The notes beneath the pieces were generated by a model. The model ran no database searches, had not been told where the DNA came from, and worked only from the letters and a program-made list of their open reading frames with translations. From positions 1 through 64,000 of the forward strand of contig JANYGI010000229.1 of NCBI GenBank assembly GCA_025362495.1: DNA of 64,000 nucleotides, read 5' to 3'. Of the stretch, positions 3-9,081 are shown piece after piece. Position numbers and translations under genes: made by a program. This DNA is from Byssovorax sp. GTDB taxonomy: Bacteria; Myxococcota_A; Polyangia; Polyangiales; Polyangiaceae. Within the stretch, counting starts at the first letter, position 1, and every line of letters starts with the position of its first letter.

Positions 3-1241
3 TCACAGCGATGGCAGCGAGAAGTGGAAGCGAGCGCCCTTGCCCGGCTCGCTCTCGACCCCGATCTCGCCGCCGTGAGCATCGACGATGCTCTTCGCGA
101 TGTAGAGTCCGAGCCCGCTCCCGTCGGACCGCCGCTCGCCCTGCCAGGAGCGATCGAAGACGTGGGGCTGCTGCTCCGCGGAGATCCCTTTGCCGCTGTC
201 GATGACCGTGAACCGCACGTGGCCGGTGCCCTGCTCGGTGACGAGGCGCACCTCACCGCCTTCCGGGGTGAACTTGATCGCGTTGCCCACGAGGTTGGTG
301 AGCACGCGGTGGATGCGGTCCGTGTCGGCCTGGACGAGCTGCTCCGGGTTCGAGATCTCGAGCGTGAGCCGGATCGATTTACGCTCGGCGAGCGGCTCGA
401 GCAGCTCCATCGCGTCGCCGACGACACGCCCGACGGTCTCCGGGCGCGGCTCGACGACGAAGCGGCCTTCCTCCAGCTTGGTCATGTCGACCAGATCCTC
501 GATCAGCACCGCCATGCGCCATGCCCCGCGCTCGATGCGGTTCATCGCCTGCTTGAGCTTCGTGTCCTGCGGGACGAGGGCGCGCTGGATCATCCGCGCC
601 TGCATCTGGATGACGTTGAGCGGGTTGCGCAGATCGTGCGAGACGACGGCCACGAGGTCGTCGCGCGCGCGGACCGCGCTCTGCGCGTTCTGGTAGAGCA
701 CCGCGTTCTCGATGGCGAGCGAGGCGCGGCGCGCGAGCTCCTCGCCGAGGAGAGCGTCGCTCGCCTCGAAGGGAGAGCGGGCAAAGGTGCGCAAGAACAG
801 CAGCGCGCCGATGGACCGCTGCCGCGCCACGAGCGGCACCGCGACGAGCGACCGCACGCCGATCAGGTTCCAGAGAAGATCGAAATGGACGTCGTCGAGC
901 GTGGCGCTCTTGAGCCACCTGACGTCGATGCGCCGGTACACCGCCGGCCTGCCGGTGAGCACCGCGCTGACCGTGCCGCCCGGATTTTCCTCACGCGGGG
1001 TGTAGGCGTAGAGCCGATCGGCGATCTGCTGCCGGGTCGGATCGGCGTGAAGCACTTTCGCGCGGCGGAGCATGCCGGTCTTCTCCGAGACCAGGTCGAT
1101 CACGCACAGGTCGCAGAAGAGCGCCGTCGCGAGGCGCCCGACGCTCACGACCGTCCGCTCGAAATCGATCGAGCTCCCGAGGCGCGCGCTGGCCTCGGCG
1201 AGGAACGCGAGGCGCGCCTGAGCCTCGCGCTCGCGGAGCAC
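3..1241 (-). CDS. GAF-domain sensor histidine kinase (C-terminal part of a probably frameshifted gene)
   Basis: The frame encodes a cytoplasmic histidine kinase of 412 residues: a GAF domain at about 15-190, a HisKA domain with the phospho-acceptor His near 202 in VVSHDLRNP, and an ATPase domain with an N box near 311-329 (NLVGNAIKFTPEGG), a G1 box DSGKGI near 347 and a G2 box GSGLGLYIAK near 373. All catalytic boxes are present and the stop codon lies at 3-5, so the C-terminus is complete. The only in-frame start codon I found upstream is GTG at 1241, which has no clear ribosome binding site. The same strand just upstream encodes a phytochrome-type PAS domain in another frame, so this is more likely the second half of one gene beginning at 1792 than an independent gene. 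No response regulator is adjacent. Confidence 0.8.
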   Translation of the reverse strand: MLREREAQARLAFLAEASARLGSSIDFERTVVSVGRLATALFCDLCVIDLVSEKTGMLRRAKVLHADPTRQQIADRLYAYTPREENPGGTVSAVLTGRPAVYRRIDVRWLKSATLDDVHFDLLWNLIGVRSLVAVPLVARQRSIGALLFLRTFARSPFEASDALLGEELARRASLAIENAVLYQNAQSAVRARDDLVAVVSHDLRNPLNVIQMQARMIQRALVPQDTKLKQAMNRIERGAWRMAVLIEDLVDMTKLEEGRFVVEPRPETVGRVVGDAMELLEPLAERKSIRLTLEISNPEQLVQADTDRIHRVLTNLVGNAIKFTPEGGEVRLVTEQGTGHVRFTVIDSGKGISAEQQPHVFDRSWQGERRSDGSGLGLYIAKSIVDAHGGEIGVESEPGKGARFHFSLPSL

Positions 1242-1792
1242 TTGCCGATGGAAATCGATATCGATCGCGAAGCGACGGAGATCGATCGCCGCGATCTCCG
1301 CGCGAAGCCGGTCAACGCGCGCACGCTCTCGACGAGGATCGCGCGCAGATCGTGGATGCCGCGCGCCGCTCCGAGGCGCGTGACGGCGCCGTGGACGGGG
1401 TGGACCGCGGCGGCGCCCTCGCTCGCGACGGCGGGCTCGAGCTCGAACAGCGTGTTGCCGAGGCGGCGATGGAGGATGCCGTGGAAGCGACGTCCGCCGA
1501 GCTCGATCGGGATCGGGTTTTCACCATCGAGGCGCGCCGCGCGCACCGCCGCGCTCACCCGCGCGTTGTCGACCGGCCCGAGGACGGCGGCGAGCGGGGC
1601 GCCCAGCAGCGAGCTCGGCGGAACCCCGAGGAGTTCCGGCGCGTTCGCGCTCGCGCGGCGGATGGTCAGCTCGGGCTCCCGCAGGACCAGGAGCGCGCCG
1701 TGCGGCTGGATCGCGCCGGGCACGTGGATCGGCTCGCGATCGCAGTTCGTGAGGTCGAGAGGCGGAGCGCTCCCCGCGGTCTCGCGATTCAC
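1145..1792 (-). pseudogene. Bacteriophytochrome N-terminal PAS_2 domain, frameshifted and lacking the bilin GAF/PHY region
   Basis: Reading from GTG 1792, the first ~125 residues match the N-terminal domain of bacteriophytochromes: LTNCDREPIHVPGAIQPHG (including the Cys that binds biliverdin in that family), then SANAPELLG and a strand ending in LFELEP. The frame stays convincing to RALTGF at about 1304-1322, exactly where the bilin-binding GAF domain should begin with DRVMVYRF. That domain and PHY are absent; the frame turns into Arg/Ser-rich nonsense and closes at 1145. In the frame of the downstream kinase, sensible coding (an LRAEIAAIDLRRF-type helix) starts at the same point, so a one-base shift near 1250-1305 probably separates two halves of one gene. 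The GTG overlaps the heme oxygenase TGA as GTGA, the usual bphO-bphP coupling. A sequencing error could explain the shift but not the missing domains. Confidence 0.6.
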
Positions 1793-2394
1793 GCCAGCGC
1801 CTCGCGCTCGCGGAGCCAGGCGTGCAGCGCCGCGAACGTCTCCCGCGCGAACGCGACGATGGTCTGCTCCGCGTCGAGCGCGCGCGCCGACTCGTCCAGA
1901 ACGACCACGAGCTCCGGCCACATCGCGCCGGTGTCGGGGCCGTACCCATGAAATTAGGCGGCTCCCGCGGTCGGCGTGACGCCGAGGCCGGCGAGGTGGC
2001 GGCTGATGATCCGGCCTCCCAGGGTGGCGCCCTCGAGCACGTACAGGCAGCCGAGCGCCTCGCCGACGGCGCGAGGGACGGGCGCGCCGGAAGCGATGGG
2101 GATCTCCGCGAGCGCGCTCTCGTCGAGACCAAGCGCACGGAGATCGCGCTCGATCAGGGCGAGCTTGCGGCGGCGCTCGAGGTCGAGGGCGAGCGAGGCC
2201 ACCCGCGGGATCGCGCGGAGCGGCTCCTCGACGGCGGCGTGATAACCGTGGAGCGCCTCGAGCACGCGCCGGTAGCGCGCGCTCGTCAACGAGCGCTCGA
2301 CGAAGCCGAGGTCCGCCTCGATCCGCGCGTGGTCATGCTCGGTGGCGCGCCGCAACCTGGCAAGGACGAGAGGTACGGATGTCCCGATCTGCAT
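1789..2394 (-). pseudogene. bphO: Heme oxygenase (BphO type) with in-frame TAA stop
   Basis: Bacterial heme oxygenases open haem to biliverdin, the phytochrome chromophore. The N-terminal part has the family helix LRRATEHDHARIE, with the expected proximal haem-ligand His in the TxxxH pattern, and later YVLEGATLGGRIISRHLAGLG. At 1954-1956 a TAA interrupts the frame, but the same frame continues with FHGYGPDTGAMWPEL, the conserved C-terminal heme oxygenase motif, to a TGA at 1789-1791. Read through, the protein would be about 201 residues, the normal family length; as it stands it ends after about 146. The start ATG 2394 is chosen over an ATG 42 bases further out because GAGGTGA sits at 2400-2406, five bases away. 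Its end overlaps the phytochrome PAS start as GTGA. Confidence 0.75.
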
Positions 2395-3550: not shown

Positions 3551-5127
3551 CACGGGTCGAGCTCCTCGCCCCGCGACAGTGCGGCCGCGACTCGCTCGAA
3601 GGTGGCGGCGTCGTTCGCGTGCTGTGCGGCCGTACGCTTCCGTTCGGAGGCCATCGGGAGCTTCATCCGGTCGACGCCCGCGAGCGCCTCGCGGTGCCGC
3701 CCCAGGAACGCCCAGTAGAGGGGTGTCAGCGGGCAGGTCGTCTTCGGATCGAATCGGCAACCCTCGCAATGATCGCTCATCCGGTGGATGTACGCGGCGC
3801 CCGCGACGTAGGGCTTGGTCGTCATGAGATCGCCGGCCGCGAAGGTCCCCATCCCGAGCACGTTCGGCTCCACGACCCAGTCGTACGCGTCGATGTACGC
3901 CGCCCAGAACCAGTCGGTGAGCTCGCGCGGCGAGACGTCGAGCAGCGTGGCGATGTTCGAGAGCACCATCAGGCGCGTGATGTGGTGGCTCGTGCCGTCC
4001 TGCCAGACGCCGGCGACGACGTCGTCGAGGCACGCGAGGCCCGAGCGCTTTCCCCAGTACGCGGGCGGCAGGGGGCGCGCCGCGCCGAGGAAGGAGATGC
4101 GCGAGCCGCCATCGACGGCGTCACCGCACGGCGGAGCCTCGCCGCGCACGACCCTGAAGCCGTCGGTCGCTTCGTGGACGTGGCGCACGAACTCGCGCCA
4201 GCCGAGCACCTGCCGGACGAAGCCCTCCTGGCTCGACAGCGGCAGGTCCATCGCGAGCGCGTCGTGGAGCACCTGGTGCGCGCTCAGGCGCTGGAGGTTC
4301 AAGAGCGGCGCTATCCGCGCGTGGAACAGGTTGCGCGAGCGCGACGACATCGCGTCCTCGAAGGGCCCGAAGTGGGGCAGGCACTTGGCTTTGGCCCAGG
4401 CCCAGGCGGCCTCGACGTCGGCCGCCGTCGCCGGCAAGGCCTCGGGCGTGAGGGTCCCCGGGTGCTCGCCCATCGAGCCCGCGACCAGCGCGCAGACCTC
4501 GCGCGTGATCGCGTCCACCGGGAAGGTCGGCACCGGGGGCGCCGGCGGCTCGCCACGCCAGGGCCTGCGGTTGTCTTCGTCGAACGAGAGCTTGCCGCCG
4601 ACCGGCTTGCCGCCCTCCATCAGGATCCCGAGACGGCGCCGGACATGGCGGTAAAACGCGTCCATGCGCCACGCTCGGCCGCGAGTCGCGGCGAGGAAGT
4701 CCTCCGTCGTGGTCAGCCACCCCTCGTGCGGCAAGCGCTGCAGGGCGCCGGACTCGAACAGCGGCTCGAGCTCGGCGCGGAGCTCGCGCTCCGCCGGGCG
4801 CATGACCCCGAGCGGCCCGAGCTCCCGCACGCGCCCCAGCGCGGCCGCATAGGAGTGGTCGACCACGTGCCGCACGGCCACGCCGCGAGCGGCCTGCTCG
4901 AGCGCGAAGTGGCGGAGGCTCGTGAGCACCAGCGCTAGCTTCTGCTTGTGGTAGGGCCGCCGCGCCGCCTTGGCCGGGCACTCCACGAGCACGATGCCGA
5001 GCTCGCGCGGCGCCGTGCGCGAAAGAGGCCCCACGGCGTCGGTCAGCTGGTCGTAGGGCACGAAGAACCACCGGCGCCCGGACTCGTCCACGCGGTGTGC
5101 ATCGAGGCTTTCGCGGAAGACGCTCAT
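3550..5127 (-). CDS. Iron-sulfur bacterial cryptochrome/photolyase (FeS-BCP, photolyase-related protein)
   Basis: This 525-residue protein belongs to the FeS-BCP/PhrB class, which binds FAD and a [4Fe-4S] cluster and repairs (6-4) photoproducts in characterised members. Family marks are the N-terminal FFVPYDQLTD and VECPAKAARRPYHKQK, the FAD-domain stretches GFVRQVLGWREFVRHVHE and LMVLSNIATLLDVSPREL, and the C-terminal DHCEGC followed by CPLTPLYWAFL. The three C-terminal Cys, plus the Cys in SGLACLDDVV, supply the four expected cluster ligands. I start at ATG 5127 (MSVFRESL) because the extra 48 residues of the longest frame overlap the divergent nei gene and look noncoding. It is followed directly by the DUF2237 gene, and the DNA glycosylase lies divergently 100 bases away. 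Confidence 0.92.
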   Translation of the reverse strand: MSVFRESLDAHRVDESGRRWFFVPYDQLTDAVGPLSRTAPRELGIVLVECPAKAARRPYHKQKLALVLTSLRHFALEQAARGVAVRHVVDHSYAAALGRVRELGPLGVMRPAERELRAELEPLFESGALQRLPHEGWLTTTEDFLAATRGRAWRMDAFYRHVRRRLGILMEGGKPVGGKLSFDEDNRRPWRGEPPAPPVPTFPVDAITREVCALVAGSMGEHPGTLTPEALPATAADVEAAWAWAKAKCLPHFGPFEDAMSSRSRNLFHARIAPLLNLQRLSAHQVLHDALAMDLPLSSQEGFVRQVLGWREFVRHVHEATDGFRVVRGEAPPCGDAVDGGSRISFLGAARPLPPAYWGKRSGLACLDDVVAGVWQDGTSHHITRLMVLSNIATLLDVSPRELTDWFWAAYIDAYDWVVEPNVLGMGTFAAGDLMTTKPYVAGAAYIHRMSDHCEGCRFDPKTTCPLTPLYWAFLGRHREALAGVDRMKLPMASERKRTAAQHANDAATFERVAAALSRGEELDP

Positions 5128-5227
5128 ACGCGCCAGGGCTTGAGGTCCGGCCACCGCGGCAGGCAAGCCCTGCCCGATCGTTTTTCCCCTTGTCGTGGCG
5201 CCGCGGGCGCCCAAGTACATCCGACCC

Positions 5228-6172
5228 ATGCCGGAAGGGCACACCATCCATCGCGCCGCGCGCGACCACAACGCGGCGCTCGCCGGTCACGCGCTCTCGG
5301 TCACATCGCCGCAGGGGCGGGCCGACTTCGCTGCGCTGACGGGCGGGGCCGACCGCGTGACGCTCCGGCGCGTGGAGGCGTACGGCAAGCATCTCTTCTA
5401 CGTCTTCGAACGCGGGCGGACGGTCCACATCCACCTCGGCCTCTTCGGCAAGTTCCGGCGGAGCCCATCGCCGCCGCCGCCCCCTGCCTCCACCGTGCGC
5501 ATGCGCCTCGAGGGGCCCGAGGTGACGTTCGATCTGCGCGGCCCCACCGCATGCGACGTGATCACGAGAGGGGAGAAGGCCGCCCTCCTCGCGCGCCTGG
5601 GGCCCGATCCGCTCCGCGACGACGCCGACCCACAGGCCTTCTTCGACTACCTCGGACGCTCGAAGGTGCCAATCGGCGCGGCGCTGATGGACCAGAGTGT
5701 CATCGCCGGCGTGGGCAACGTGTACCGGGCCGAGGTGCTTCACCTGCTCCGGCTGCACCCCCTCGTCGCGGCGCGCGAGGTGCCGCGAGCGGTCGCGGAG
5801 GAGATGTGGACGCTGCTCGGTCTTCTGCTGCGCAAGGGCGTGGAGGACCGCCGAATCATCACGACGCGCGGTCTCGTCGCGACCCGCGGCAAGCGTGTCA
5901 CGCGCGGCGAGAGCGTCCACGTCTATGGTCGCCAAACGTGCTTCACGTGCGGTGGGCCCGTGGGGCGCTTCCTCCTGCGGGCGCGGACGGTACACCTGTG
6001 CACGGGGTGCCAGCCCTATGCGACGGCTGCGCTCCCGGTGCGCGCGAAGCTGGCCACGACCACCTCGCTGACCGAGATGTCAGTCACGGGCACCTCGGAA
6101 TACCCCACCCTCGACGCCATCCTCGGACCAGGTGACCACGACTCTGCGCTGCCCGCCCCGGCCCGCCGATAG
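5228..6172 (+). CDS. nei: Fpg/Nei family DNA glycosylase (endonuclease VIII-like)
   Basis: The mature N-terminus MPEGHTIHRAA has the catalytic Pro2 and Glu3 of the Fpg/Nei family; the GHTIH form is typical of Nei-type enzymes that excise oxidised pyrimidines and cleave by beta,delta-elimination. The helix-two-turn-helix motif is seen in DQSVIAGVGNVYRAEVL, and the C-terminal zinc finger as CFTCGGP followed by CTGCQP. ATG 5228 is forced by the need for Pro2; the longer frame starting 33 bases upstream is not used. The gene is 314 residues, a little longer than usual because of a C-terminal tail of about 40 residues. It is divergent from the photolyase, forming a small DNA-repair pair. Confidence 0.93.
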   Translation: MPEGHTIHRAARDHNAALAGHALSVTSPQGRADFAALTGGADRVTLRRVEAYGKHLFYVFERGRTVHIHLGLFGKFRRSPSPPPPPASTVRMRLEGPEVTFDLRGPTACDVITRGEKAALLARLGPDPLRDDADPQAFFDYLGRSKVPIGAALMDQSVIAGVGNVYRAEVLHLLRLHPLVAAREVPRAVAEEMWTLLGLLLRKGVEDRRIITTRGLVATRGKRVTRGESVHVYGRQTCFTCGGPVGRFLLRARTVHLCTGCQPYATAALPVRAKLATTTSLTEMSVTGTSEYPTLDAILGPGDHDSALPAPARR

Positions 6173-6328: not shown

Positions 6329-7695
<1,367 letters not shown>

Positions 7696-7699
<4 letters not shown>

Positions 7700-9081
7700 G
7701 CTGCGGCCTCGGTCGCGGCGCGGCGCGCGCGGGGGAACACCAGCTCGAAGCAGGTGAGCTGGTCGCGTCGCTCGTAGCGGAGCGCGCCGTCGTGCGCCGC
7801 GGCGATGGCCTGCGAGAGTGCGAGGCCGAGGCCCGTGCCGTCGGGCTTGGTGGTGAAGAAGGGCTCGAAGAGCTCGTGCAGTCGCGCGGGATCGACGCCC
7901 GCGCCGGCGTCGCGCACCTCGACGCGCGCGGCCTCGTCGACGCGGCTCACCTCGACGGCGACGGTGGCTTCGCGCGGCGAGGCCTCGACCGCGTTGCGCA
8001 CCAGGTTGTCGACGGCGCGCGCCACGGCGTCGACGTCGAGATCGGAGGTGGCCTCGCCGGTGACCTCGATCCGCACGCCGCGCTCGTCGGCCCACGGGCG
8101 GAGCAGGGCGACGCGCCGCTCGACCAGCGCGCCGAGCGAGGTCGCGACCCGCGGCCCGGTGCGGCGGCCGGCGACGACGAGGAGATCGGCGACGAGGCGA
8201 TCGAGCCTGGTGATCTCGTCGGAGACCGAGGCCAGCTCGCGCGCGAGCTCGGGTGTCGTCGACGGGCGACGCCGGCCGAGATCGACGCGCAGCTTGATCG
8301 ACGCGAGCGGGTTGCGGACCTCGTGCGCCACGCCCGCGGCGACGCGGCCGAGCGCGGCGAGGCGCTCGCGCCGCGCGAGCTCGACCGCGAGGCGCTCCTT
8401 GTCGACCTGGGCGCGCGCGAGCGCCTGCGCCAGCGCGGCGATGCCGTCGCGCAGCTCGCCGAGCTCGCGAAACGGCGGGCGCGGTACGGGCGCCGAGAGA
8501 TCGGTGGCGAGCGCCGCGAGGGCCGAGTTGAGCGCCGCGGCGCCGCGCTGCACGGACACCACGGCCTGCAGCGCGGTCGCGACGAGGAGCGAGGTCGCGA
8601 CGGTCAACACGATCACGATGATCTTCCACGCGAGCGCGAACGAGGGCTGCCGCACCGCGTACGCGACCCACGCGAAGCCCCCATCCGCCGCGCGCGAGAC
8701 GCCCACGACGAGGATTTCGTCGGCGATTTCCGCGTCGCGCACGATCGCCTCAGGTGAGGCTCTCGAGCCTTCCAGCGCACGTTTCAGCTCGCCCCGCGAG
8801 GCCGGATCGAGCTCCGCTGCGGGATCGTCGAAGCCGGCGGCCGAGGTCACTCGCCCGCCGCGCATCCCGAGCATCGACGTCGCGAGGGGCAGCCCGGGCG
8901 GCGAGGCGGGCAGCTCGCCGCGCAGCACCGCGAGCTCGTGCCCCACCGCCTCGCGCGCGCGCTCGACCCGCTGCGCGTGCGTGAACGAGAGGACCCGCGC
9001 GAGGGCGATCAGCGCGACCGCGCAGGTGATCACGCTCAGCAACGCGACGGCGAGGAAGCGGCTGCGGAGGGACGATTTCAT
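7696..9081 (-). CDS. NtrB-type membrane sensor histidine kinase
   Basis: A 461-residue kinase with a transmembrane helix near 8-30, a periplasmic sensor region of about 110 residues, a second helix near 140-165 (WKIIVIVLTVATSLLVA), a HAMP-like linker, HisKA with the phospho-acceptor in VAAGVAHEVRNPLAS, and an ATPase domain with DNLVRNAVEASP, DAGAGVD and GTGLGLALSQ. ATG 9081 gives a clean signal-anchor start; the longer frame upstream covers the regulatory gap. It partners the sigma-54 regulator that overlaps it, and probably senses an envelope or drug/metal stress handled by the divergent RND pump. The ligand cannot be read from the sequence. Confidence 0.94.

Follow-up and report, generated by a model that had tools for sequence, protein, structure and literature searches.

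Operons of the type bphO-bphP-RR have been described in Stigmatella aurantiaca and Chondromyces apiculatus (PMC6126659). The locus considered here resembles these myxobacterial operons in that a heme oxygenase gene lies beside a phytochrome gene; however, both genes are interrupted here, and any response regulator would lie past the end of the contig. It can also be compared with the bacteriophytochromes L141, L142 and L145 of the same taxonomic family (genomes G101, G102 and G053), with which it shares a PAS_2 domain with the biliverdin Cys, the C-terminal segment of the PHY domain and membership of one HisKA/HATPase clade. By contrast, each of these three is encoded by one open frame (760-906 codons), in which the bilin GAF and PHY domains are present and PHY sits directly on HisKA. 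Going by the title of a 2007 report by Vuillet et al., a bacteriophytochrome is said to have lost light sensing and turned into a redox sensor. Compared with that protein, as known from the title, our locus would likewise be a phytochrome gene that is no longer a photoreceptor, whereas here it is the core that appears to have been deleted. A limited search, covering parts of the literature, brought up neither this locus nor any phytochrome pseudogene of the same form.

The DNA analysed, hereafter the window, is a stretch of 64,000 nucleotides from Byssovorax sp. whose first base is also that of contig C173, in an assembly of 10.84 Mb and 240 contigs. On its minus strand, a heme oxygenase gene (2436-1789), a phytochrome head (from GTG at 1792) and a GAF-HisKA-HATPase frame follow one another; the stop codon of the last, TGA at 5-3, is the very end of the contig, and the sequence past the kinase is not covered. 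The single reading frame from photosensory core to kinase that is expected of a bacteriophytochrome (BphP) is absent. When the locus was read in three frames and compared with a profile of 18 phytochromes, the head was found in frame 0 and the kinase in frame 2. A 658-codon open frame also runs antisense across the locus (3-1979, plus strand); such antisense frames are usual in high-GC coding DNA.

The head lies in an open reading frame at 1145-1792 on the minus strand, which carries the biliverdin Cys expected near the N-terminus of a BphP (1744-1742, within LTNCDREPIHVPGAIQPHG), a PAS_2 domain (1744-1430; Pfam E-value 2.1e-24, about 87-88.4 bits) and the start of the bilin GAF domain as far as the motif LTGF, which ends at 1304. 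The 18 phytochromes of the profile belong to the same taxonomic family as the window, and one of them, on contig C89, comes from the same genome. With a score of 165 bits, the profile follows frame 0 to LTGF-A-R, where the F codon is 1306-1304, and the frame-0 match stops there. The three-frame reading, Pfam and this profile therefore all confirm what the sequence-only reading had described, that is, a PAS_2 domain with the biliverdin Cys that reaches LTGF and then loses the frame. Of the bilin-binding GAF domain, which in a BphP contains the PASDIP motif, the start up to LTGF alone is left. The remainder of the head frame, to its TGA at 1147-1145, is an out-of-frame reading. The nearest relatives of the head are the phytochromes of G101 and G102 (49 and 52%, respectively).

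The GC content at third codon positions (GC3) agrees with a change of frame near the end of LTGF. Across the blocks 1720-1361, the PAS_2 frame has a GC3 of 0.88-0.95; from 1240 downwards, the kinase frame has one of 0.90-0.97. In the block 1360-1241, which holds the junction and part of the PHY remnant described below, GC3 favours the old frame (0.82 vs. 0.56), and this counts against the decayed-operon reading proposed below.

The kinase open reading frame, as listed from its GTG, covers 3-1241 on the minus strand and encodes 412 amino acids, and the frame stays open up to 1520. Right after the break, at 1292-1227, it contains a feature that the sequence-only reading did not mention, a 22-residue remnant of the C-terminus of a PHY domain, AAIDLRRFAIDIDFHRQVLRER (27.0 bits, E-value 1.5e-7). 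Comparable PHY ends precede the kinase in relatives, such as AAEDLRRYAVEIDLERQVERAQ in L142 and AVELLRRALIELDLTRQVVRER in L156. The profile used has 29 columns and was built from five relatives selected for their likeness. In the six-frame translation of the window, the remnant is its sole significant site, the next site having an E-value of 0.8, and none of 138 other loci, which had been obtained by kinase searches, gave a significant match (best E-value 0.35). This narrower profile was used because a broader one, made from the 18 varied phytochromes, scores the remnant at -3.4 bits and so leaves it undetected; the evidence for the remnant therefore rests on the closer relatives. The rest of the PHY domain, including the PRxSF motif of a BphP, is missing.

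The junction can be placed at 1304-1292 on the minus strand: homology on the left extends to the F codon (1306-1304), or at most to an R codon (1300-1298), and homology on the right begins at an A codon (1292-1290). In the five relatives, the span that is absent here, from the end of LTGF or its equivalent to the end segment of PHY, amounts to 321-330 residues. A perfect 9-bp inverted repeat with a 7-base loop (1276-1284 and 1292-1300) lies at the junction, and an 8-bp direct repeat, CGCGAAGC, occurs at 1266 and 1301. These repeats could be a trace of the deletion mechanism or could be there by chance; short repeats are common in the DNA of the window.

The GAF, HisKA and HATPase_c domains are all found by Pfam in the kinase frame, between 1313 and 6. 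HisKA (668-465; PF00512, E-value 2e-16; H-box SHDLRNP) and HATPase_c (326-12; PF02518, E-value 4e-30) are complete. Two trees of the kinase domain alone provide evidence that does not depend on the PHY remnant. In the first, the window groups with the phytochromes L141, L142 and L145 (4 rows, 98/90). In the second, with more phytochromes and 32 non-phytochrome rows, it falls in a 9-row clade with eight phytochromes (99/96), as expected of a kinase part that shares common descent with phytochrome kinases; this clade sits in a 34-row set that also holds 25 non-phytochrome kinases. One of the eight, L246, was first labelled 'other' owing to a pattern failure, and reading shows a direct PHY-HisKA joint. 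The relatives of the head, the PHY end and the kinase trees are concordant, and thus point to a single former phytochrome. The sequence-only reading had offered, as one option, a phytochrome head spliced onto another kinase; this does not hold, since a PHY end opens the kinase frame and the kinase domain groups with phytochrome kinases. The locus is what is left of a standard phytochrome whose ancestor was mildly unusual, and no new fused photoreceptor.

What made the ancestor unusual is an extra GAF domain, which here lies after the PHY remnant and ahead of HisKA (1127-711; PF01590, E-value 7.1e-6; GAF_3, 9.4e-7). No DIP motif is seen in it, and the earlier statement that the downstream kinase has its own, non-bilin GAF domain is borne out. 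None of the eight sister phytochromes has a GAF domain at this joint (seven by distance, L246 by reading). In a wider search, 37 distinct phytochromes, two of them from the window's own genome, were examined for the number of residues that separate a PHY marker from the H-box. Among the 29 that could be measured, the distance is 56-69 residues in 28, which leaves no room for a GAF domain, and 301 residues in L151, which carries PAS_4. Eight gave no distance; one of these, L246, was read and lacks the GAF domain. Accordingly, no intact PAS_2-GAF-PHY-GAF-HisKA gene was found among the 29 measured phytochromes and L246. The order in the ancestor was probably PAS_2-GAF-PHY-GAF-HisKA-HATPase.

The second lesion is in the heme oxygenase gene. 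From the first listed ATG, which may not be the true start, this bphO-like gene covers 2436-1789 on the minus strand, and the match spans positions 5-204 of the 204 of PF01126. A lone in-frame TAA, at 1956-1954, lies inside the match, so that the heme oxygenase is indeed broken, as had been noted before; the part ahead of the TAA still matches PF01126 with an E-value of 2.4e-5. The column of the TAA is Y or F in all seven aligned heme oxygenases, including the one on contig C138 of the same genome, which is consistent with a simple nonsense change. The stop codon of the heme oxygenase overlaps the start of bphP as GTGA (1792-1789). In 20 phytochrome regions searched, the direct upstream neighbour is a heme oxygenase in six (L144, L146, L151, L153, L158 and L159), which speaks for the operon reading proposed below. 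It was not found there in the other 14; that these include the nearest relatives L141, L142 and L145, and the C89 locus of the same genome (L140), counts against that reading.

Compared with intact relatives, the locus thus carries two kinds of inactivating lesion, the TAA in the heme oxygenase and the internal loss with the frame break in bphP. Decay best accounts for two lesions within the same operon, and the lesions support the suggestion of the sequence-only reading that a photoreceptor system is decaying here. We consider it probable (about 0.83) that the locus is a decayed bphO-bphP operon whose bphP was formerly one reading frame. On this proposal, bphP would have encoded PAS_2-bilin GAF-PHY-GAF-HisKA-HATPase in a single frame. 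An internal deletion would have taken about 321-330 codons, that is, nearly the whole bilin GAF domain and all of PHY save the last 22 or so recognisable residues, and would have left head and kinase in different frames; the heme oxygenase supplying biliverdin would have been struck by a nonsense codon. The deletion appears to be a real one in the organism. It would also be recent, because neither the PAS_2 head nor the kinase is eroded. As far as can be judged from sequence, bphO and bphP would both be non-functional. As it stands, the locus cannot yield a biliverdin-binding photoreceptor, because the head retains the Cys but has no pocket for the chromophore, and it is not connected to the kinase. 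The lack of erosion, with a PAS_2 score of 88.4 bits that is within the range of other loci, counts against a full loss of function, and some function may remain in the head and the kinase.

The sequence-only reading had proposed a search for another intact bphP in the genome, and one exists on C89: its open frame, 892 codons long, encodes PAS_2, GAF, PHY, HisKA and HATPase_c and has the Cys. On C133, a contig of 3.5 kb, a phytochrome with its own kinase is cut within the head by the contig edge. The PHY family (PF00360) matches C89 and C133 only. When an intact phytochrome was used as the query against the whole genome, the window locus was matched in two pieces (query 68-331 and 645-903), and whole photosensory cores elsewhere were found only on C89 and C133, where each core has a kinase of its own. 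This query and the PHY family search revealed no copy of the missing GAF-PHY part in the rest of the assembly, and there is no sign within it that the piece has moved. Against this stands a weak kinase match on C159 (31%, query 520-904) that reaches into the PHY span; C159 is absent from the PHY family matches. C133 was considered as the missing piece of a gene split over two contigs and rejected, because its phytochrome already has a kinase and the end of its PAS_2 differs. A second heme oxygenase, with no internal stop, lies on C138. The genome retains the means for phytochrome signalling elsewhere.

An assembly or base error near the contig end, by which the living gene would be whole, the contig short by about 1 kb and one base wrong in the heme oxygenase, seems improbable to us. 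The locus does lie at the very end of C173, contig ends can be poor, and the 108 genomes of the family include no other member of the genus. However, the loss of 1 kb at one sharp junction is unlike the usual base error, and the missing part was not found on other contigs. Internal stops are also rare in this assembly, with one in 136 HATPase_c matches (frameshifts lie outside this count), so that a random wrong base in the heme oxygenase is unlikely, though possible.

Alternatively, the locus might give rise to two functional products, a head protein with at most 215 amino acids and, through re-initiation, a GAF-HisKA kinase that is blind to light. The kinase frame has a GTG (1148-1146) that shares bases with the TGA of the head (1147-1145), like the stop of bphO and the start of bphP, and this would permit coupling; HisKA and HATPase_c are complete, and the GC3 of the kinase frame is high (0.90-0.97). 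However, a GTGA overlap arises easily by chance at about 70% GC, a start at 1148 would drop the residues ahead of it and with them the front of the GAF region, what follows LTGF in the head frame is an out-of-frame reading, and the heme oxygenase is interrupted too. We would give this arrangement little credence. A related idea is that the locus, having lost its photosensory core, still makes a light-independent GAF histidine kinase for another signal, translated from the GTGA at 1148-1145 by re-initiation or from another start, and prepared for by an earlier insertion, absent from all eight sister phytochromes, of the GAF domain between PHY and HisKA; this would be a speculative outcome, with perhaps a slim chance of being correct.

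A true chimera, in which recombination joined a phytochrome head to an unrelated GAF kinase, is very improbable, although the best full-length matches of the GAF-kinase part are non-phytochrome kinases (41-44%) and no sister phytochrome has a GAF domain there, since the PHY remnant precedes the GAF domain and the kinase groups with phytochrome kinases. It follows from the remnant and the kinase trees that, at most, the GAF domain itself was acquired, before the deletion.

The decayed bphO-bphP operon adds one case of photoreceptor loss to a class in which PAS_2 matches occur in 50 of 317 genomes, at 60 loci in all. A PHY domain follows 607-808 bp downstream in 54 of these loci; the six without a PHY partner are the window locus and those in G153 (C66), G122 (C618), G118, G243 and G231. 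It had been asked whether relatives carry a PAS_2-GAF-HisKA protein of this arrangement without the frameshift. None of the remaining 59 PAS_2 loci in the 317 genomes is an in-frame fusion of this kind lacking PHY, so that the outcome named beforehand as refuting the earlier reading did not appear. The loci in G153 and G122 each form one long frame in which DIP motifs can be read and whose PHY was not listed by the family search; that in G118 is cut by a contig edge; that in G243 has a weak PAS match (E-value 8.4e-4) and a kinase without phytochrome features, by reading; and that in G231 combines PAS_2 with a receiver domain.

A few other phytochrome loci of the class, in G007, G120 and G231, look broken or reduced. 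The locus in G231 (L253, contig C342, 3097-4245, minus strand) is a 383-codon frame with PAS_2 and a response-regulator receiver, without a GAF or PHY match; the biliverdin Cys is absent by reading, making it an in-frame reduced phytochrome, and a neighbouring open reading frame resembles, by eye, a KaiC-type ATPase. In G007, a single-contig genome, the phytochrome frame of L159 stops at a TGA within the PHY match, with a heme oxygenase directly upstream, and a search of the same strand of the 8-kb region for the H-box pattern gave no match; this is possibly another lost phytochrome. In G120 (L258, contig C1431), the phytochrome runs across different frames with a TAG within the PHY match, which reflects either decay or poor sequence.

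About 1.1 kb from the phytochrome operon, the window contains two divergent genes whose listed open reading frames overlap at their starts, one for a photolyase-related protein (3553-5271, minus strand; DPRP, E-value 2.7e-43) and the other for a DNA glycosylase of the Fpg/Nei type (5195-6172, plus strand). They are followed by a gene for a sigma-54 activator with a receiver domain and a Fis-type helix-turn-helix (6332-7714, minus strand).
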